64,000 nucleotides of DNA from Candidatus Poribacteria bacterium (lineage in GTDB: Bacteria > Poribacteria > WGA-4E > WGA-3G), in contig JAJEIE010000009.1 of NCBI GenBank assembly GCA_022827625.1, positions 124,001 to 188,000 of the forward strand. The letters are read 5' to 3'. Numbering within the stretch: the stretch's first letter is position 1; each line of letters opens with the position of its first letter. Below, piece after piece: positions 8,240 through 56,890 of the stretch. The notes beneath the pieces were generated by a model that did no database searches, had not been told where the DNA came from, and saw only the letters and a list, made by a program, of their open reading frames with translations. The position numbers were made by a program, and so were the translations under genes.

Positions 8240-8335
8240 GGTTTTCTAACGAATGCTTTTGAGCTGCTGCGTCCGTTGTCCTTGCAGTCTTTCAATTGTT
8301 AACAAACCTTTTTAGACCTAAAGCAGGTTTCTAAT
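8240..8335 (+). repeat. Stop-adjacent intergenic repeat (copy 1 of 2)
   Basis: Begins directly after the TGA of the MBL gene and shares a ~95-base sequence with 56798-56890. Common words include 'TGCTTTTGAGCTGCTGCG', 'CGTTGTCCTTGCAG' and 'CAATTGTTAA'. The outer part can pair (CTAACGAATG with CAATTGTTAA). Possibly a 3' UTR hairpin or a small mobile repeat. Confidence 0.7.
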
Positions 8336-8951: not shown

Positions 8952-9818
8952 ATGCAAACCCTAACCGATTCCCAAATCCACGATTTTAACGAGAATGGCT
9001 ATCTGTTACTCGAAGATGCCCTTGCGCCAGACGATCTAAACCCACTCATCGCTGAGTTTGAAGAAATTGTCGATACCGGTGCAGCAGAACTTTACGCCGA
9101 AGGTGAAATCGACTCCGAATTCAAAACGGAGGGCTTCGACACACGTCTGGCAAAAATTACAGCACAGTCGCCCGCGGTGTTTCAGAAAGTGTTTAGCGGT
9201 GCACACACAGGTCCAGCACTCTTCGACCTGCTCATCAATCCGAAACTGCTGGACATCGCCGAATCGCTTGTCGGACCGGAGATTATGTGTCATCCCGCAT
9301 ACCGAGTGCGTCCGAAACTCCCACAGCACGATCGCACGCTCGTTCCGTGGCATCAAGACGCGGGCTATATGGAGCCGAAATGTGACTCGGTTTTACAACT
9401 CACGATCTGGATTCCATTGATAGATGCCACTGTTGAGAACGGATGTATGGAAGTTATTCCACATGCCCACCGAGAGGGCGTTTTACGGCATCGTCACTCT
9501 GAACGTTTCTATCTCGAAATTCCGCCAGAGGCATTGCCCACAGTTGATCCGGTAGTCGTTCCTGTTAAGTTCGGGAGTGTCCTCCTGCTTACCAATCTCA
9601 CACCGCACCGTTCTATTCCGAACGTTAGCCATCAAGTTAGGTGGAGCGTTGACTCGCGCTATCAGGACGCTGCGAAACCGACCGGCTATCAACCGGAAGC
9701 AGGATTTCTTGCCCGCAGTCGATCGCATCCTGAAGATGTTGTTACCACGCCTGAGGAATTTAAGCGCATTCGCGACGAGCATCAACCCGGACCAGGTCCA
9801 AATCGCTGGACTTTTTAA
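8952..9818 (+). CDS. Phytanoyl-CoA dioxygenase (PhyH) family protein
   Basis: A 288-residue Fe(II)/2-oxoglutarate dioxygenase of the PhyH family. 'LTDSQIHDFNENGYLLLEDAL' is the standard opening, 'PWHQDAGYM' gives the H-x-D iron ligands, 'NGCMEVIPHAHREG' is the conserved turn, and 'LTPHRSIPNVSHQVRWSVDSRYQD' supplies the distal His and the 2-oxoglutarate-binding Arg. The ATG at 8952 fits the family start; an upstream in-frame start at 8880 would run through the repeat at 8858. It likely hydroxylates a small organic substrate. One of four PhyH genes in 16 kb. Confidence 0.9.
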   Translation: MQTLTDSQIHDFNENGYLLLEDALAPDDLNPLIAEFEEIVDTGAAELYAEGEIDSEFKTEGFDTRLAKITAQSPAVFQKVFSGAHTGPALFDLLINPKLLDIAESLVGPEIMCHPAYRVRPKLPQHDRTLVPWHQDAGYMEPKCDSVLQLTIWIPLIDATVENGCMEVIPHAHREGVLRHRHSERFYLEIPPEALPTVDPVVVPVKFGSVLLLTNLTPHRSIPNVSHQVRWSVDSRYQDAAKPTGYQPEAGFLARSRSHPEDVVTTPEEFKRIRDEHQPGPGPNRWTF

Positions 9819-9950
9819 ACTATTAAATATGGACGTTGTTCCACTACGTTCCACAACGGTATCCATCTAAGTCAAAAACTTTCTTTAGATTAGAAGAGCC
9901 TGCTAACTTTACCGGAAATCACTGCTGAAAGGAACAGAGGGATACCCAGG
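9816..9950 (+). repeat. Stop-linked hairpin repeat, family A (copy at PhyH 3' end)
   Basis: Starts within the stop codon (TTTTTAAACTATTAA) and carries the hairpin CGTTGT-TCCACTACGTTCC-ACAACG. The same loop with different but complementary stem bases occurs at 28415 onward and, on the other strand, at 33666-33893. Downstream text 'TTACCGGAAA' is shared with the 28 kb copy. Confidence 0.65.
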
Positions 9951-9974
9951 ATCAATCATTAGAAAGGGAAAATA

Positions 9975-10469
9975 ATGATGTGCAATTTCAAACGATTATC
10001 TCCATTTTTCGCCATTCTTGTTTTTCTGATGAGCGGAGCCACACCACCAACCGAGAACCCCAAACCGGAAGAGGTTGAACTCCGCGGCAAGGTCATCTGC
10101 TTAGCGGAGGAGATGCACACGCACTACAATGTAGAACTCTTTAAAACCCACGCGCATTTATACGGGGTCAAGACCGAGGAAGGCAAATACTACACGCTCC
10201 TTCGTACTTCGTTAGCTGAGGCACTTTTTGTTGACGAGCGCCTGCATGAAAAAGATCTGATTATTAACGGTCGCGTCTTTCCCAACACGCAACTGCTGGA
10301 GGTTATTCGTTTTGCCTCCATCAAAGATGGCGTTGTCCATGAACTCTACTACTACTGCGATACGTGCTATATCCGTGCTGTTGCCCCGGGGAATTGCGAC
10401 TGTTGCCAAGCACCGGTTGTACTTATTGAAAAACCGCTAAATGTCGATTCTACAATACCGTCGCCATAG
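9975..10469 (+). CDS. Exported hypothetical protein with Cys-rich C-terminal metal-binding-like motif
   Basis: A 164-residue protein. The N-terminus (MMCNFKRLSPFFAILVFLMSG) is a signal or lipoprotein-like segment. A beta-rich region 'VELRGKVICLAEEMHTHYNVELFKTHAHLYGVKTEEGKYYTLL' resembles small OB-type secreted domains. Near the C-terminus, 'YYCDTCYIRAVAPGNCDCC' gives C-x2-C-x9-C-x-C-C, likely a metal site. I do not recognise the family. A GGGA site precedes the ATG pair at 9975/9978. It lies upstream of two unrecognised paralogues on the same strand. Confidence 0.7.
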   Translation: MMCNFKRLSPFFAILVFLMSGATPPTENPKPEEVELRGKVICLAEEMHTHYNVELFKTHAHLYGVKTEEGKYYTLLRTSLAEALFVDERLHEKDLIINGRVFPNTQLLEVIRFASIKDGVVHELYYYCDTCYIRAVAPGNCDCCQAPVVLIEKPLNVDSTIPSP

Positions 10470-12944: not shown

Positions 12945-13985
12945 TCAGTAAAGTGTCCGCTTATTTTTGGCGGACGCGACATCCCAAATACGGATGGTGC
13001 CATCTCTGCCACCGCTCGCAAACGTCCGCATATCCACACTAAAGGAAATAGCAACAACTAATCCGCTATGCCCTTCAAAGTTTTTCTTATATTCGCCTGT
13101 GTTTGGATCCACCAAGTGAATATGCCCTAATTCATCACCACCTGCTAACAGGCTGCCATCTGGACTAAAAGCGATGCTATAAATACTATATATACCGGCA
13201 CCAGAAATTTTATGTTTCAGGTCTCCTTTCACCGTGTCCCACACATGGAGAATCCCACCGCCACTACTGAAAGTCCCGTCTTCACGACGGATAACCCTCT
13301 GACTGCCTCCGCTCGCCACTGTTTTGCCATCCGGACTGAACGCGATGAGATGACAACCTTCTTTGTGTCCTGTAAGCGTTTTTTTGATTACGCCTTTAAC
13401 CGGATCATACAAATCAATAGTGGCGTGCAGATTTGAAACCGCCAGTATAAGGTGCTTCGGATCGAAAATGGAACAGTAAACATTAAGAAATTCTTCCAAT
13501 CTTTTAATATGCTGCTTTTTGACACCCGTGTCTGTGTGCCAAAAAGTGAGGTCTCCGTATATCCCCACCGTCAAGAATGTTTCGCCATCTGGACTGAAAT
13601 CGAAACTTCTAATCCAACCGTCACGCTCAAGTTCATATTTATGCTCCCCTGTGTTGACATCCCAAAGATGGATTCTGGAAAGTTCTTCTTCACTTGCGAT
13701 GATATTCCCGTCCGGACTGAAAACGATACGGTTGGTCCCGGTTTCATGTTTCTTCAACAAACGGAGTAATTGATAGTTGGTGGTATCATAAATCCAAATC
13801 CCCTCAGAATGTGCAACAGCGAGCCGTGTACCATTTGGTGAATACTCCACATCGTAGATGCGACCCTCACGGAACGATCCTTTCGTACCTTCGGGTAAAG
13901 CGGATTGAGAGAAAAGGGATGGGAGATAGAACGTTGAAACGAGAAAGAACATCAGAGAGGTAAGGAAAGGGATTTTTTTTATCAC
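12945..13985 (-). CDS. Exported WD40 repeat protein
   Basis: A 346-residue protein. I place the start at GTG 13985 because GAGGAG lies about 7 bases ahead and the sequence then reads directly into a signal peptide ending LFSQ; an ATG at 14042 would add a polar 19-residue leader. Six to seven WD40 blades follow, each with 'FSPDGxxxASG…' and 'IxLWDxxTGE' strands. The WD40 propeller is a protein-interaction scaffold; here it would work in the periplasm or outside the cell. Its neighbour upstream is a longer protein of the same type. Confidence 0.87.
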   Translation of the reverse strand: MIKKIPFLTSLMFFLVSTFYLPSLFSQSALPEGTKGSFREGRIYDVEYSPNGTRLAVAHSEGIWIYDTTNYQLLRLLKKHETGTNRIVFSPDGNIIASEEELSRIHLWDVNTGEHKYELERDGWIRSFDFSPDGETFLTVGIYGDLTFWHTDTGVKKQHIKRLEEFLNVYCSIFDPKHLILAVSNLHATIDLYDPVKGVIKKTLTGHKEGCHLIAFSPDGKTVASGGSQRVIRREDGTFSSGGGILHVWDTVKGDLKHKISGAGIYSIYSIAFSPDGSLLAGGDELGHIHLVDPNTGEYKKNFEGHSGLVVAISFSVDMRTFASGGRDGTIRIWDVASAKNKRTLY

Positions 13986-14068
13986 AATAGGTCTCCTCAA
14001 ATGTAGATTGTTGGAATGTATATTATTCTGTGCTTCAAACAAAAAGTGCCTACAGAAGGTCTGTTTCT

Positions 14069-16060
14069 CTAATCCATATTATCAACCGCGAGATCCCACA
14101 ATAACACAGTGCCGTCAACACTACCACTCGCGATTGTCCTCCCATCCGGACTGAACGCGACGCTTCCTACAAATCCTCGATGCGCATTTAGTGTCTGCAG
14201 CTGTTTGCCGGTGCTTACCTCCCACAACATCACACTGCTATCATTAGAGCCATGCGCCGCGGTCTTACCACCAGCACTTACCCTCCACAATATCGCATTG
14301 CTATCATTAGACCCGTGTGCCAGTATCTTACCATCCGGACTGAACGCGATGCTATTGCCAGAACCACATTGCGCTTCTATCGTCCGAATCGGTTCACCCG
14401 ACCCCACATCCCATAAAAGCACCGTCCCGTCCTGAGCACGACTTGCGCCTATCTTTCCGTCTGGACTGAAAGTTACGCCATAAAGTGGTTTATCCAACGT
14501 CAAAAGCAAGGCACCGGTATGTGCATCCCACGTGTGTACGGTTTTATCATCACTCCCGCTTGCCAACACAGAGCCATCTGGACTGAACGCGATACTTGTG
14601 AACCCAGCCCTTTCCAACCTGTTCACACGTCTATTCATCCGCTTATTCAATGCTATCGTCCTTATATGCTTACCTGTTTGCATATCCCACAAATAGATAA
14701 AGCCGCTGCTATTCGCATTCGCAAGTTTTTTGCCATCTGGACTAAAAGCAACGTAGCAAGGCGTAGGAACGCTTACCGGACCGGTTTTAACATTACGTTC
14801 AAGCCGCATCGGAAGTTCTGCCCCTGTTTGGACATCCCACAAAAACACGGTTTTATCCATACTACCACCTGCAAGGGTTTTGCCATCCGGACTGAACGCT
14901 ACACTCACAAGGGAACGCCACCAATCCATAGCCGATGTTTGAAGCAGCTCGCCTGTCTGAATATTCCACAAATAAGCCGTATTATCCGAATAGCTGCCGC
15001 CTGCCAAGGTTTTGCCATCTGGACTGAACGCAATGCTACCAATAGCATGCCTATGTGCTATCATCTTCCGCTGTTCTATACCGGTTTTCACATCCAACAG
15101 ATGCACAGTGTTGAACCTGCTACAACTTATCAGCGTCTCACCATCTGGGCTAAATACAAGGCTCCTGCTACCAACCTTATCCCCCAACACCCGCAGGTAT
15201 ATCCCTCTCTGCACATCCCATAGATAGATTATACTGTAACTTCCACCCGCCAACATCTTACCATCCGGACTGAACGCTACACTAAAGAGAGTATTGTGGC
15301 TACGCTCAAACCTATGAAGGCACTCGCGCTTCTCCACATCCCATAAACAGGCGGTATCGTCTTCACTTGCACTCGCCAGCAACTTTCCATCCGGGCTGAA
15401 CGCTACGTCTAAGACTTTGTCCCCATGCCCTATGAAGGAGTACAGCGTTTTCCCTGTCTGTGCATCCCACAAACGGATGGTCTTGTCCTCACTCCCACTC
15501 GCCACTGTTTTGCCATCCGGACTAAACGCTACACTTGTGACAGCCTCGGTATGTCCCTTGAGCATACGCAGCTGTTTGCCGGTGCGCACATCCCATAAAC
15601 GGGTGGTCCTATCCTCACTCCCACTTGCCACTGTTTCGCCATCCGGACTAAACGCTACATCCGTGGTTTTACCCTTATGTCCTCGCATTGTCCAAAGTTC
15701 AGCACCGGTGCGCGCATCCCACACACGGACGGTGCGATCAATGCTTACACTTGCCAACAGGGTGTCGTCCGGACTGAATGCTACACTCATAACCCAATCT
15801 GTATGTCCTGTCAGCAAATTGAGTGGTTTGTCGGTCTCTGTGTCATACACCCAAATACCGATGCTACAGGCGACTGCTAAGCGTTTTCCATCACTGGAAC
15901 TCGCGATATTTCCTGTTATTTTCCCCTTACCAAACCGTGCTTTCACGCCTTCGGGTAATCCCCATAAGTGCCAATCTTGTGTGTCTTGTGCGAACGTGTT
16001 TTCGGGAATAACGCATATCGCGAACACAATCGCTAAAATCAAAGGCAATGTTTTTTGCAT
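14069..16060 (-). CDS. Exported WD40 repeat protein (long form)
   Basis: A 663-residue protein with signal peptide 'MQKTLPLILAIVFAICVIPENTFAQ', then about 13 WD40 blades with near-identical 'VAFSPDGKTVASGSEDKTIRLWDAQTGK' type cores. Residues around 590-640 contain an incomplete duplicated half-blade ('HGSNDSNAILWRVSAGGK' then 'HGSNDSSVMLWEVSTGK'), so blade number is changing by recombination. A TATAAT-like -10 lies upstream at 16095-16100 on the minus strand. Long antisense frames in the plus strand are a by-product of the repeats. It shares the mature start 'LPEGVKARFGKGKI' with the downstream paralogue's 'LPEGTKGSFREGRI'. Confidence 0.9.
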   Translation of the reverse strand: MQKTLPLILAIVFAICVIPENTFAQDTQDWHLWGLPEGVKARFGKGKITGNIASSSDGKRLAVACSIGIWVYDTETDKPLNLLTGHTDWVMSVAFSPDDTLLASVSIDRTVRVWDARTGAELWTMRGHKGKTTDVAFSPDGETVASGSEDRTTRLWDVRTGKQLRMLKGHTEAVTSVAFSPDGKTVASGSEDKTIRLWDAQTGKTLYSFIGHGDKVLDVAFSPDGKLLASASEDDTACLWDVEKRECLHRFERSHNTLFSVAFSPDGKMLAGGSYSIIYLWDVQRGIYLRVLGDKVGSRSLVFSPDGETLISCSRFNTVHLLDVKTGIEQRKMIAHRHAIGSIAFSPDGKTLAGGSYSDNTAYLWNIQTGELLQTSAMDWWRSLVSVAFSPDGKTLAGGSMDKTVFLWDVQTGAELPMRLERNVKTGPVSVPTPCYVAFSPDGKKLANANSSGFIYLWDMQTGKHIRTIALNKRMNRRVNRLERAGFTSIAFSPDGSVLASGSDDKTVHTWDAHTGALLLTLDKPLYGVTFSPDGKIGASRAQDGTVLLWDVGSGEPIRTIEAQCGSGNSIAFSPDGKILAHGSNDSNAILWRVSAGGKTAAHGSNDSSVMLWEVSTGKQLQTLNAHRGFVGSVAFSPDGRTIASGSVDGTVLLWDLAVDNMD

Positions 16061-23176: not shown

Positions 23177-23989
23177 ATGCTCAATCAAAATCAGGTGGAT
23201 ACATTTCGGAAAAAAGGGTTTCTTCTCGGAAACCGAGTTTTAAGCGATGCACAGGTTGATGAATTGCGTTCGGAGTTGGGGCGCGTCATTGATAACTATG
23301 AAAAACCTGAGGTCCCACAACCTGTACGTATTGCCAATCTCGGTGGTAAAGAAGAGAGTCCCGTCTGGCAAATTGTTAATATCTGGGAGGCGAGTTCTGC
23401 TTACCATCGACTCGTTCACAATCCGACCATTGTGGAAGAGATTGGACAACTGACAGCAGCAACAGAGGTGCGCGTCTGGCACGACCAAATCCAATACAAA
23501 CCGCCACAAGTCGGTGGCGTGAACCGTTGGCATCAGGATTCGCCGTTGTGGGGGATTCTCATGCCGAAAACGAGCCAAGTAACGGCTTGGGTTGCGTTGG
23601 ACGATGTTGATGAAAGCAACGGGTGCATGCGTATGGTCCCCGGTTCTTACCATTGGGGCAGCCAGATGCCGTTTTTGCGTGAAGTTGGGGACCTCGATTC
23701 ACTGCCGGATCGCTTTGAAGGTAAAGAATTAGCGGTCGAACTCTGCCCTGTGTCGAAGGGGCATGTCCATTATCATCACGCCTTAACGTGGCACGGTTCG
23801 CATGATAACACCAGCAGCGATCCGCGGCGCGCGATTGCGGTGCATTATATGACGAGCGAAACCATTTATGACGAAAGTGGTAGCCACATCATGAAACGTT
23901 TCGTTACTATCAAAGATGGCAATAAATTAGCAGGCCACCACTTTCCACTTGTGATGGATGCTGGAAAACCGACGAAGCCGAATATATAA
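23177..23989 (+). CDS. PhyH family dioxygenase (tandem copy 1)
   Basis: A 270-residue protein. 'QVDTFRKKGFLLGNRVLSDAQVDELRSEL' opens the fold, 'NRWHQDSPLWGIL' carries the H-x-D iron ligands, 'NGCMRMVPGSYHWG' is the core turn and 'LTWHGSHDNTSSDPRRAIAVHY' gives the distal His and the 2-oxoglutarate Arg. The downstream gene is almost the same protein. Substrate unknown. Confidence 0.9.
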   Translation: MLNQNQVDTFRKKGFLLGNRVLSDAQVDELRSELGRVIDNYEKPEVPQPVRIANLGGKEESPVWQIVNIWEASSAYHRLVHNPTIVEEIGQLTAATEVRVWHDQIQYKPPQVGGVNRWHQDSPLWGILMPKTSQVTAWVALDDVDESNGCMRMVPGSYHWGSQMPFLREVGDLDSLPDRFEGKELAVELCPVSKGHVHYHHALTWHGSHDNTSSDPRRAIAVHYMTSETIYDESGSHIMKRFVTIKDGNKLAGHHFPLVMDAGKPTKPNI

Positions 23990-24013
23990 GTTTTTCTATA
24001 GGAGTGAAGAGAT

Positions 24014-24826
24014 ATGCTCAACCCAACCCAGGTTGACACATTTCAGAAAAAAGGCTTTCTCCTCGGAAGCCGTGTTTTAAGCGATGAACAGGTTGAGGAA
24101 CTACGGTCAGAACTGGCACGCGTTATTGATGATTACGAAAAAGCCGATATTCCGCAGCCCGTGCACATCGCCAATCTTGGTGGTAGGGAAGAGAGTCCCG
24201 TCTGGCAAATCGTTAATATTTGGGAGGCGAGTCCTGCCTATCACCAACTCGTTCACAACCCTGTTATTGTGGAAGAAATTCGCCAACTGACAGCAGCAAC
24301 AGAGGTGCGCGTCTGGCACGACCAGATCCAATACAAACCCGCCAAAGTCGGGGGTGTCAATATGTGGCATCAGGATTCGCCGTATTGGCCAATTCTTACA
24401 CCAAAAACGAGTCAGGTAACGGCTTGGGTTGCGTTGGATGATGTTGATGAAAGTAACGGGTGTATGCGTATGGTCCCCGGCTCTTACCATTGGGGCAATC
24501 AGATTCCGTTCTTGCATTCCATCAAAGACATCCATTCCATGCCTGACCACTTTGAAAATAAAGAATTAGCGGTCGAACTCTGCCCTGTCCCGAAAGGGCA
24601 TGTTCATTACCATCATTCCTTAACGTGGCACGGTTCGCATGACAACACCAGTGGGAATCCGCGCCGTGCGATTGCGGTGCATTACATGACAGGCGAAACT
24701 CGCTATGATGCCAGTGGAAACCACGTTATGAAACCTTTTGTCACCGTCGATGACGGCGATAAATTAGCAGGCGACCATTTTCCGCTTGTAATGGATGCAG
24801 GGGTGCCGACAAACCCTAACGCATAA
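24014..24826 (+). CDS. PhyH family dioxygenase (tandem copy 2)
   Basis: Also 270 residues and colinear with copy 1 over its whole length without gaps that I can see. All catalytic residues are kept ('NMWHQDSPYW', 'LTWHGSHDN…PRRAIAVHY'). Most changes are conservative or cluster around residues 160-180 ('IPFLHSIKDIHSMPDHFENK' versus 'MPFLREVGDLDSLPDRFEGK'), which may shape the substrate pocket. The gap to copy 1 is 24 bases with AGGAG upstream. A recent tandem duplication. Confidence 0.9.
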   Translation: MLNPTQVDTFQKKGFLLGSRVLSDEQVEELRSELARVIDDYEKADIPQPVHIANLGGREESPVWQIVNIWEASPAYHQLVHNPVIVEEIRQLTAATEVRVWHDQIQYKPAKVGGVNMWHQDSPYWPILTPKTSQVTAWVALDDVDESNGCMRMVPGSYHWGNQIPFLHSIKDIHSMPDHFENKELAVELCPVPKGHVHYHHSLTWHGSHDNTSGNPRRAIAVHYMTGETRYDASGNHVMKPFVTVDDGDKLAGDHFPLVMDAGVPTNPNA

Positions 24827-26517: not shown

Positions 26518-26685
26518 TTGGTTGTTAATAGTCGTTGGTTGTTAGTTATTGGTTAAGTGTTCTGGTCTTTACATCCGTCTTGAATTCCCCAGCTTCTCTG
26601 TACAAAAAGGTTTGTGGCATTCACAAAAAACATAAGCTCCAAAGCACTTAACCATTAACTGACAACTATTAAAAAAGGAGTTCAC
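26515..26685. repeat. Intergenic word-repeat region (GGTTGTTAGTTATTGG / AACCATTAACTGACAAC)
   Basis: Arms made of 'ttggttgttaatagtcgttgg' words on the left and 'cacttaaccattaactgacaac' on the right enclose ~90 bases with a 'ttgtggcattcacaa' inner dyad. It fills the 173-base gap before the LamG gene. Confidence 0.5.
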
Positions 26686-28417: not shown

Positions 28418-28560
28418 TTTTTAATTTATTGAATCTGAGCATCGTTCCACTTCGTTTCACGATGGTTTCGGGGAGTAGAGAATCTGCTTTAGGTTTGGAA
28501 AGATTACTGACCTTACCGGAAACTACTGTGGAATGTAATGGAGCAGTACTTATACAGCAA
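28415..28560 (+). repeat. Stop-linked hairpin repeat, family A (copy at LamG 3' end)
   Basis: Starts at the TAG stop and contains the hairpin CATCGT-TCCACTTCGTTTC-ACGATG. The loop matches the copies at 9816 and 33666, while the stem bases differ but stay paired. It shares 'TTACCGGAAA' further on with the 9.8 kb copy. Confidence 0.65.
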
Positions 28561-28598
28561 TAGTTAGAAAACTGGCATCTGTCTGTTGCCATCAAGTT

Positions 28599-33646: not shown

Positions 33647-33665
33647 ATTTCCATCCCCAATTTTA

Positions 33666-33893
33666 TTGATGTTTCTCGTGACAGCAACAAATATACTCTA
33701 CAATTCAGTAGCAGCTTGATTTAACCGTATCCCACCGTGAAACATAGTGGAACGGTGACCAGAGTTAATAGTTTAAAAAATTGATGTTTCTTGTGACGGC
33801 AACAAATATACTCTACAATCCAGTAGCAGCTTGATTTAACCGTATCCCACCGTGAAACATAGTGGAACGGTGACCAGAGTTAATAGTTTAAAA
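33666..33893 (-). repeat. Stop-linked hairpin repeat, family A: two tandem copies
   Basis: Two units of ~113 bases offset by 115 (33666 and 33781) differ at only a few positions. On the minus strand each starts TTTTAAACTATTAA, right at the stop codon (33888-33890) of the glycosidase gene, and carries the hairpin CACCGT-TCCACTATGTTTC-ACGGTG. The 'ATATTTGTTG' and 'AGAAACATCAA' segments are also repeated. Confidence 0.8.
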
Positions 33894-36428
33894 ACCAGAA
33901 GAACTGCCAGAGGTCTTAGTGAATTGGATGCTTGCCTGCACCAATTTGTCGGGTTGCGTTTTTGTAAACGTCAATTGACAGATCGGTGAGTTCCAATTAT
34001 ATTGATAATCACTGCCGTAAGTCGCTACACCTATGGGTAAGTACCCCTCTGGTACATGAATAAAGCAGGTACCATCCGCCTGTCGAAGGGGTTTGCAGAC
34101 GAGTAGGTAAGTTTGGCTATGGCTATCCCAACCCGCGGATAGAATTTCAACCGCGCCTTGCGTATAGTGCATATCCGTTGCAAGGAGCTGTGGAATGTCT
34201 TGCTCTTCACGAAAACAGAGAAGTTTCACGGAGCGCGGGGGAATATTGAGTAAGTTCACGCTATGTGAAATCTTACCGAGGTACTGCCGCATCCAGAAAT
34301 CGTGAACGAGATACTCCTTCGATTCACCAAGCCCAAGTGCATCGAGTTCAAAGTAAGTATCATCTTCATGGTCATTCCAATTGAAGACTGCCACAAGGTG
34401 CCAGGCCTCGTTCGGTGTTGAAATCGGGAGGCTCCAAATTTGTGGGAATAGCTCATCATAAAGGTCTACCGGTATAGCAGCCTTACCCAAGAGCGGAAAG
34501 ATCCGCGCTAAGTCCGCCGCCCGCGACGCAGTAAGTGCGGTTAATCGGTCCCCGCAAAAGACGGCACCGCCACTCAATGCTGCTGCCGTCATCTCCACAA
34601 TCACCTCATTGACAGGTCTCGGCTCACCCACCGTCAGTTCACCGAAGACATGCTGCCAGAGGGAATGATGCTCTCGGATACGGGCTGCATATCTGCTCAA
34701 ACGGTGCTTCGTCCCCCGCGGGTGGTGCCACGGATCATTGATGCGGTTTGAAGTAGCCATGCTCGAAAACGGAGGGTTGAGAAGTGGTGCATTCAACGCT
34801 ATATTCCCAAGGCAGGGTCCCGTGACGGCATTGTATCCCGCCAGAAAGACCTTTTTATCAGTAGATGTGTTCTCCGAGCGCGCCTCTTCAATAGCATCTT
34901 TTAGCAACTCACCGGCAAGGCGGTAGAGCTCGACAGAGGTAAGAGCTTTATCGTGCCAGCGCAAGTTGTGTTCGCTGTTAGTAAGCGCTGTCGTATACGC
35001 CGTGAAATCTACATTGATGAGTGAACATCCATATTCGTTGATTATCTGTTTAATCTGTTTGCTGATATGCCGCCGCACTTCAGGGTGGGAAACATCTAAC
35101 AGTACGACTTCGGTACTGCCTTCTGGTAGATGCGTTGTGGCAGGTTTGTAATCGTTGCGCCCTGAATGCCGCCGTGACTTCCTTCTTCCATTTCGTGCCA
35201 CGACTGCCTCTTGGATGCAGTAATCCGGGTGTTTCTGGACAAGTGCTGAATCAGGTACTGCACAAAATGGGTTGATTCGAACTGCTGTCCTAAAGCCTTT
35301 TGTTTGAATCTGATTGAGAACTGTTCGCAGCTCGTCAGCAGGCGTTTGTGTTTCTGGATCCTCTCTATCCAGTACAGAAGTCCCAAATTGCGATTCTAAT
35401 CCAGGGTCTAATTGAATATAATTTATCCCGCCGAGGAAATCTGGTTGAAAGAACCGGTTTTCCGTGAGTTCATCGGCTTGCGTTAAGACAGTGTTCGCGT
35501 CCAAGGACAGTTGGGCGGGGGAAAGGTTCCAAGCAGCAATTGGGACATCAGACTCAGGCGAAGTGTGAGGTTCAGGACAACCGTTCTTCAGTGCTAACAT
35601 CTGCGTGTAGTGTTCATAGCACGCTGCAGCACTGCCTGAAAAGTTGAGATAGACAGTCTCCGAAGTGATCTCTTCCCCGAAATCGCATCGCTGTTTACAT
35701 AGATGATAGAGTGCCCACGGATTAGCACCAGATGTTGATGTCCTTTTATGGGATTGGGCGTTGGACCGCGGCTTACCGTGACAGCCGACTTGGATACGGG
35801 GCCACCATTTCTCTGTCGTCAGAAACCCAAAAACGAGGGTCTTGCCGCTCTTGGTATCGCGAAGTACACCATCGTGGCAGGGATGTCTGGCATCCGTTTC
35901 ACTCAACAGAAATCCATCATAGAGCCTTCTACTCACGCCAGAGGAGACGGGCGGCATGTTGATAAATAGATGGCAATCCGAGGGGGTTTTACCAACCAAC
36001 ACAGCACCACGGTTTGTGGAAACGCCAAGTACGGTTAAATTTTCTAGCTGGACCGATCGCTCCTGATTGAGGTTCTCAACACCCACTTTCAGCAGGATAG
36101 CTGGCTGTGTAGGGTAGCAATTGAGGTAGGTATTTATGCGTATGCCCTTCCCTGTCGCTTCATGCGAGAAACGGATCTGATAATACGTTCCGAAAGCATC
36201 CGTTTGGGGAAATGCTGTGATAAATTCGGAGTTCCCGGCATCTTCGGTCTTGACAACGCTTCCGTCATCAAGGGTTATCTGTGCACATCCATTGCGGATA
36301 ATTGTATCGCCACTCTCATCAATGTAATCCCATGTTCCTTTTGAAAGGCTGAATTTAATTTCAAACTTACTATGGTTTATCACGACAAGGTTTCCCCGCC
36401 GTGAAACAACTACATCATCTGGTTTCAT
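33888..36428 (-). CDS. GH36-like (clan GH-D) glycoside hydrolase, putative alpha-galactosidase
   Basis: An 846-residue protein without signal peptide. The N-terminal ~300 residues form a beta-sandwich ('YYQIRFSHEATGKGIRINTYLNCYPTQPAILLKVGVEN'). A TIM barrel follows ('GGINYIQLDPGLE', 'KGFRTAVRINPFCAVPDSAL'). 'CSLINVDFTAYTTAL' resembles the GH36 nucleophile strand (K-x-D type), and 'ATSNRINDPWHH' resembles the acid/base segment. A beta C-terminal domain ends the protein. Substrate uncertain: alpha-galactosides are the family default. The stop codon coincides with a repeat start. The central insert 'NGRRKSRRHSGRND' is basic and looks non-conserved. Confidence 0.7.
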   Translation of the reverse strand: MKPDDVVVSRRGNLVVINHSKFEIKFSLSKGTWDYIDESGDTIIRNGCAQITLDDGSVVKTEDAGNSEFITAFPQTDAFGTYYQIRFSHEATGKGIRINTYLNCYPTQPAILLKVGVENLNQERSVQLENLTVLGVSTNRGAVLVGKTPSDCHLFINMPPVSSGVSRRLYDGFLLSETDARHPCHDGVLRDTKSGKTLVFGFLTTEKWWPRIQVGCHGKPRSNAQSHKRTSTSGANPWALYHLCKQRCDFGEEITSETVYLNFSGSAAACYEHYTQMLALKNGCPEPHTSPESDVPIAAWNLSPAQLSLDANTVLTQADELTENRFFQPDFLGGINYIQLDPGLESQFGTSVLDREDPETQTPADELRTVLNQIQTKGFRTAVRINPFCAVPDSALVQKHPDYCIQEAVVARNGRRKSRRHSGRNDYKPATTHLPEGSTEVVLLDVSHPEVRRHISKQIKQIINEYGCSLINVDFTAYTTALTNSEHNLRWHDKALTSVELYRLAGELLKDAIEEARSENTSTDKKVFLAGYNAVTGPCLGNIALNAPLLNPPFSSMATSNRINDPWHHPRGTKHRLSRYAARIREHHSLWQHVFGELTVGEPRPVNEVIVEMTAAALSGGAVFCGDRLTALTASRAADLARIFPLLGKAAIPVDLYDELFPQIWSLPISTPNEAWHLVAVFNWNDHEDDTYFELDALGLGESKEYLVHDFWMRQYLGKISHSVNLLNIPPRSVKLLCFREEQDIPQLLATDMHYTQGAVEILSAGWDSHSQTYLLVCKPLRQADGTCFIHVPEGYLPIGVATYGSDYQYNWNSPICQLTFTKTQPDKLVQASIQFTKTSGSSSGF

Positions 36429-56797: not shown

Positions 56798-56890
56798 TTT
56801 TTAACGATTGCTTTTGAGCTGCTGCGGACGTTGTCCTTGCAGGCTTCCAATTGTTAAAAGCCTTTTTTAAATCTTGATCAGGTTTTTTAA
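56798..56890 (+). repeat. Stop-adjacent intergenic repeat (copy 2 of 2)
   Basis: Begins right after the ferredoxin stop and matches 8240-8335. Here the inner part forms a stable hairpin (CTGC…GGAC-GTT-GTCC…GCAG) inside the outer pairing TTAACGATTG / CAATTGTTAA. The end (CAGGTTTTTTAATG) includes a potential but unlikely start codon for gmk. Confidence 0.7.

Follow-up and report, generated by a model that had tools for sequence, protein, structure and literature searches.

Copies of a hairpin element in the window

The window, by which is meant the whole 64-kb stretch of DNA analysed here, carries four copies of a hairpin-bearing sequence. A 47-nt consensus matches exactly these four, with scores of 38-45 of 47 as compared with a best score of 24-27 in each of 20 shuffled windows, and a conserved T-rich end (TTTTTAAACTATTAAATCTGG) precedes each hairpin. 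One copy is a complete element of about 154 bp in the 3′ end of a PhyH gene (9812..9965, + strand), as delimited by its sequence, the consensus and comparison with congeners. Its left end has an intact hairpin, CGTTGT/loop/ACAACG (9834..9858, with arms at 9834-9839 and 9853-9858, + strand), and its right end (GATCAATCATTAGAAA) has decayed. The initial annotation had placed the start of this feature at 9816; it actually starts at 9812, and the hairpin is one end of the unit of about 154 bp. Comparison with congeners indicates that a TAA supplied by the element (9816..9818, + strand) ends the PhyH gene early, giving the C-terminus NRWTF* instead of NRWAKKENNDA*.

Directly behind the stop codon of a LamG gene lies a complete two-ended element of 154 bp (28418..28571, + strand), both ends of which are matched by the covariance model R1 described below (C33:152418-152476 on the plus strand and C33:152512-152571 on the minus strand); its hairpin, CATCGT/loop/ACGATG, occupies 28440..28464 (arms 28440-28445 and 28459-28464, + strand). 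The other two copies are on the minus strand and are the halves of a 115-bp tandem duplication, 97% identical to each other, each with one hairpin end and the same CACCGT/ACGGTG stem (33848-33872 and 33733-33757). The half at 33780..33894 lies at the stop codon of a GH36-like gene, whose TAA (33888-33890) sits inside it, and the half at 33665..33779 has no contact with a stop codon. Direct reading of the sequence confirms the loop and all three versions of the stem given in the initial annotation. Its statement that all copies begin at a stop codon holds for three of the four, the fourth (33721-33779) touching none; in two of the three the TAA comes from the element's own TTTTTAA end, and the copy at 28418 starts right after the TAG of the gene.

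A related end type, similar in its T-rich terminus and with another hairpin, which carries CTGCAAGGACAACGGACGCAGCAG on the minus strand, occurs twice on the plus strand, 4 nt past a stop codon (8243..8330) and directly behind one (56798..56885). The window has further repeats of other kinds. Another family (GGTTATCAGGTATCGATTGTCAGTTGTCGGTTAAGAG) starts 2-6 nt past three stop codons, at 26523, 27463 and 30553. Two adjacent ORFs at 12945-16060 are made up of numerous short direct repeats with a frequent spacing of about 126 bp, and probably encode what we take to be WD40-like repeat proteins. At 23177-24826 lies a tandem gene duplication in which each gene encodes 270 aa and the DNA at the ends is 80-82% identical.

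A palindromic element restricted to one genus

In the genome from which the window comes, 19 pairs of ends face each other within 320 bp, nine of them spanning 152-156 bp, and pairs of similar length are present in congener G017 (1576082-1576234 and 3569868-3570021). Facing pairs of like length define the unit as a palindromic element of about 154 bp, the other end of which can also be of the second type, as found at 8243-8330 and 56798-56885. Each end consists of an AT-rich terminus of 20-22 nt (TTTTTAACTATTAAATCTGG) followed by the hairpin. On the leader strand, the hairpin has a 6-bp stem, a GAA/GGA internal loop, 2 bp (AC/GT or AT/AT) and a GWA triloop, and reading towards ATG the order is (GGTTGGAATTAACC) GAAAACC, hairpin, ACCAGATTTAATAGTTAAAAA, ATG. 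RNA folding recovers the same helices, with unexceptional fold energies (z of -0.6 to -1.6).

A blastn search with a 161-nt region gave 35 matches in the same genome. The covariance-model search that the initial annotation had proposed was carried out with R1, built from 30 ends, all of them copies from this genome, toward which its matches are therefore biased. It gave at least 124 matches at E<=0.1, a lower bound since 150 of 2518 candidates were scored; 119 of them, leaving out five with E of 0.027-0.067, have been analysed. Matches are present in all 18 members of the genus, this one included (6-104 per genome at E<=1e-4), and in none of 12 genomes that represent the order's other genera, 30 genomes having been searched in all. 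An exact-pattern scan of 84,980 species yielded 17 stretches, all from Candidatus Poribacteria, 12 of which have a start codon (ATG, once GTG) 0-2 nt downstream. Among the 30 genomes searched, the element is restricted to the genus. Rfam covariance models have no match in the window, and 12 element loci searched at E<=1 gave one weak match to a nematode snoRNA, below the threshold of that family. No description of the element was found in the portions of the literature searched, and the words intergenic, repetitive, MITE and untranslated are absent from the Poribacteria genome paper (PMC3909097).

Contact with gene borders and empty sites

An end was called start-linked when it abuts the ATG of an opposite-strand ORF of 60 codons or more, and stop-linked when it abuts a stop codon on the same strand. 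By this mechanical rule, 66 of the 119 ends are start-linked, 23 are stop-linked and 30 are neither, so that stop linkage, initially taken as the defining feature, is a minority state. The contact with start codons is exact in many cases: 58 of the 119 ends lie at -2 to +1 nt of an ATG and 47 at exactly 0. Of 5000 positions drawn at random from this DNA, 96 fall at -2 to +1, and of 79 other TTTT(T)AA words none does. Among 66 parsed copies from relatives, 34 are flush with an ATG and 11 are stop-linked. The genes downstream of start-linked ends, named from reading their translations rather than from a family search, are not related to one another, and many are housekeeping genes (proS, carB, tpiA, bioA, rplC, dapB and others). 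Putative mobile promoters, said to have been described by Matus-Garcia and co-workers in 2012 and mentioned in PMC8049555, are likewise recognized by similar sequences that immediately precede unrelated genes of a single genome; the present element differs from these in its hairpin with compensatory stems, in inverted ends that are also found at stop codons and in a likely translational role. It is not a universal leader of its genome, most genes of the window being without it. Confinement to operon-internal junctions was likewise rejected: upstream neighbours are co-directional in 59 of 66 cases by a longest-ORF rule, a mild excess at most over the window, where a count by eye from the ORF list gave 38 of 49 for adjacent same-strand pairs.

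Comparison with congeners reveals sites at which the element has been inserted. The PhyH junction is free of the element and compact in 20 of the 24 congeners compared, in which PhyH continues beyond NRWA to meet or overlap the ATG that follows. The element of about 154 bp in the window breaks the gene after TGGAC and leaves the native GGGAAAATAATGATG in place. Of the others, G011 has an independent related leader there, flush with ATG, and G008, G045 and G046 have other sequence. The LamG element is absent from all 11 congeners compared, G042 reading TAG/CATGTATCTGTC and the window TAG/154 bp/CTGGCATCTGTC, and the copy at the GH36-like gene is missing, by eye, from all 24. At PPK2, G042 has AATTGG-AAACCTACA-ATG where our genome has AATTGG-154 bp-ATG, and G007 has only about 20 nt of the leader tail left before ATG, the remainder being replaced. 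At LamG and PPK2, the few sites compared with G042 for this purpose, there is no target duplication.

Housekeeping genes vary in the same way. Upstream of tpiA, 12 of 18 congeners have a short spacer of native type containing GAAAGGACT or something close to it, and three (G002, G003 and G031), together with our genome, have the hairpin leader flush with or at most 2 nt from ATG; two have other sequence and one is unreadable. Among 19 congeners at proS, the leader is native in four, the hairpin type in eight (and in our genome) and of another family in four, three being unreadable. At the ATG-flush start sites compared the native Shine-Dalgarno (SD) region is gone; some copies, at PhyH, C7_116903 and C19_74064, have kept it. 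Upstream of carB and proS (L134-L172), the same start sites are taken in congeners by further leader families, which likewise end in AAAA|ATG (e.g., ACCGAACCGCAAGGAATAATTAAAAA). The comparison with congeners thus provides good support for the view that the element is mobile. The initial annotation had set a selected structure against a decaying repeat, an opposition that falls away for an element that is present in many copies and that congeners lack at the same junctions.

Stem pairing, start codons and rival readings

Alignment A1 contains 39 cells with two-sided changes, whereas shuffles give 13.6. Pairing holds in 92.7% of its cells and reaches no more than 57.8% once the arms are slid; further pair types are no more numerous than in shuffles. 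With stems parsed from loop anchors, independently of the stem itself, 95 of the 119 copies in our genome and 66 of 88 loci in relatives could be read, and 535/570 and 375/396 of their cells, respectively, are Watson-Crick. Together, the 161 copies have 23 distinct perfect stems and 910 of 966 cells Watson-Crick, counts that include copies whose hairpin is broken by another insertion. The random breaking of pairs in further copies that would have spoken against a selected structure is thus not seen. Start-linked stems are better kept, with 13 of 582 cells non-Watson-Crick against 43 of 384 in the others (Fisher 9e-9), or 10 of 576 against 31 of 366 without truncated copies (1.5e-6), values that are not strict probabilities because the copies are related.

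By eye, all nine hairpin leaders of proS pair. Their stems come in two versions, CACCGT and CATTGC, with differences at three pairs, and the stem of G017 has one T-G cell. A comparison by eye of our genome (G000) with G042 covered 60 of the 119 copies and gave no clear two-sided point change; several stems have one-sided changes (e.g., C26_297201, C40_37533, C33_95789 and C30_300752), and where stems differ at one gene (C4_86568 and C19_4183) the whole leader has been exchanged. From the one-sided changes and whole-leader exchanges it follows that the covariation may lie largely between subfamilies, and DNA-level causes may account for it. G-U cells number 23 on the leader strand and 13 on the other, with no clear asymmetry. 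Of the selected RNA structure proposed initially, the pairing kept through many two-sided changes therefore stands, and the RNA level is left unsupported by the G-U counts and by the comparison of G000 with G042.

How could an element end so exactly at start codons? None of the 58 flush copies has an SD word (GGAG, GAGG or AGGA) at -13 to -4, as compared with 12 of 34 ATG-start ORFs of the window. All 58 have A at -3, and A is found in 74% at -6, 88% at -12 and 62% at -13, being nearly fixed at -5 to -2; this pattern is a property of the element rather than independent evidence gene by gene, as the copies share ancestry. According to the parts consulted of a study on the SD-less Flavobacterium johnsoniae, adenines at -3, -6, -12 and -13 promote initiation (PMC6847099). 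The absence of an SD word together with this A pattern suggests that the terminus of the element is able to replace SD as the initiation region. The same source describes the Kozak-like enrichment of A at these positions, instead of SD, and the SD-less condition as the native state of most genes in Bacteroidetes, whereas here it is tied to the element, in a genome whose other genes often have an SD.

The reading that we consider probable is that the hairpins mark the ends of a non-autonomous mobile element, confined to the genus, and that the AT-rich end of this element turns into an SD-less leader for initiation. The element would enter short junctions of mostly co-directional genes. Its end towards the upstream gene would sit at, or provide, the stop codon of that gene, and its end towards the downstream gene, read in reverse, would form a 5′ leader of hairpin, ACCAGATTTAATAGTTAAAAA and ATG, often with loss of the native SD region. 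The A-rich unstructured tail would act as the initiation region, bordered on its 5′ side by the hairpin; selection would preserve the start-linked ends and other ends would decay. From sequence comparison alone, we infer the translation from the A-rich tail, the mode of movement and the exact ending at ATG, and an end before a start codon may serve as a landing site for the ribosome. A broader version is possible and more doubtful: both ends would carry a hairpin and a start-codon-ready SD-less initiation region, the spread of this transposable ribosome-landing leader would convert genes, housekeeping ones included, from SD to A-rich (Kozak-like) initiation, and several families with similar terminal nucleotides would compete for the same start codons. 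If so, core genes such as proS, carB and tpiA would have their ribosome-binding region exchanged for mobile DNA, and the turnover of leaders among species with 81-98% identical proteins would be a natural experiment on SD-less translation start. Such a case would also show how structural covariation, commonly taken to prove a regulatory RNA, can travel on a transposable element.

A purely selfish element of MITE or REPIN type, the hairpins being single-strand or cruciform recognition sites for a transposase and the contact with gene borders mere tolerance of compact operons, would suit the symmetric hairpin ends, the fixed length, the few G-U pairs, the mostly paired stop-linked ends and the compact, overlapping PhyH junction. 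Y1-type movers are not known to leave a target duplication, and none is seen at LamG and PPK2. We nevertheless think it unlikely, because 47 of 119 ends touch ATG with a gap of 0 nt, so that the element must supply initiation, because start-linked stems are the better kept and because G007 retains the tail where the remainder is lost. Compensatory changes may also arise without selection when template switching at an imperfect palindrome rewrites both arms at once, which would make the covariation uninformative on function. The nearly complete Watson-Crick pairing with few G-U intermediates and the hairpins of copies without start contact agree with this; a purely mutational process, however, does not predict that start-linked and other copies differ in pairing, and one-sided changes persist between G000 and G042, making it a decidedly improbable account of the stems.

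A vertically inherited cis-regulatory leader of a regulon, riboswitch-like and abundant by chance, could explain the compensatory changes and the leaders that G000 and G042 share at many orthologous genes, a sharing overstated since the pieces of G042 were mostly chosen for holding copies. It is largely refuted by the empty sites, with presence and absence within the genus at tpiA, proS, PhyH, LamG and PPK2, and the unrelated downstream genes, the stop-codon copies pointing away from any start and the Rfam result also make it very improbable. The 23 ends that abut a stop codon might recall an intrinsic terminator or a 3′-end stabilizer, in line with the transcript 3′-end role suggested initially. 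Such a role is scarcely credible, as the T run is on the 5′ side of the hairpin with none after it, no terminator-like site is found at 9700-10050, and start-linked ends outnumber stop-linked ones about threefold (66 against 23).

Where does the element stand among known systems? Integron attC sites, which were considered for the stop-to-ATG position and the symmetric ends, have the core GTTRRRY, the final Y of which is missing from the end GTTAAAAA, and this assignment was set aside. No sigma-70-like site is present at 9700-10050. Like prokaryotic MITEs such as Correia elements (PMC10969869), the element is short and non-coding, has terminal inverted repeats and many copies, and lies near gene starts, where MITEs can alter expression; it differs in having no target duplication at LamG and PPK2 and no related transposase among the Y1 genes, and that paper, in the parts consulted, discusses promoters and not the supply of a translation-initiation region. 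With REPINs, the REP sequences moved by RAYT transposases, it shares, according to the sections of PMC3116915 considered, two inverted hairpins as the mobile unit with singlets as remnants, extragenic location and frequent compensatory changes, and no target duplication has been seen in the element. It is set apart from REPINs by ends that directly adjoin start codons and by the 20-nt AT-rich terminus that these ends have in common outside the hairpin.

A search of our genome for the Y1 family found three transposase genes, a RAYT gene (L023) and two of IS200 type; the ends of the element are not found at any of them, nor was an autonomous copy found. The RAYT gene (L023:1000-2200, G000:C7 near 153874; NF047646) lies between arrays of a REP of GTAG type (GTAGTAGGGCAATTCATTGCCC). 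Membership of the element in this RAYT/REP system was rejected, the cognate repeat being this other REP, which is distinct from the hairpin element; one copy of it interrupts a hairpin of the element at C7:124045. The IS200-type TnpA genes (L021 and L022, on G000:C20 and C24) are nearly identical, and a repeat near them (AATCAACGGTATTCATGCC) also interrupts the hairpin at C33:94580, C33:95629 and C26:327370. In many copies other repeats are inserted in the hairpin loop with the stem still paired, and other short palindromic repeats enter at about the same place (e.g., C37:5728, C26:68429 and C30:450492 of G000), so that the loop behaves as if it were a preferred target of other repeats.
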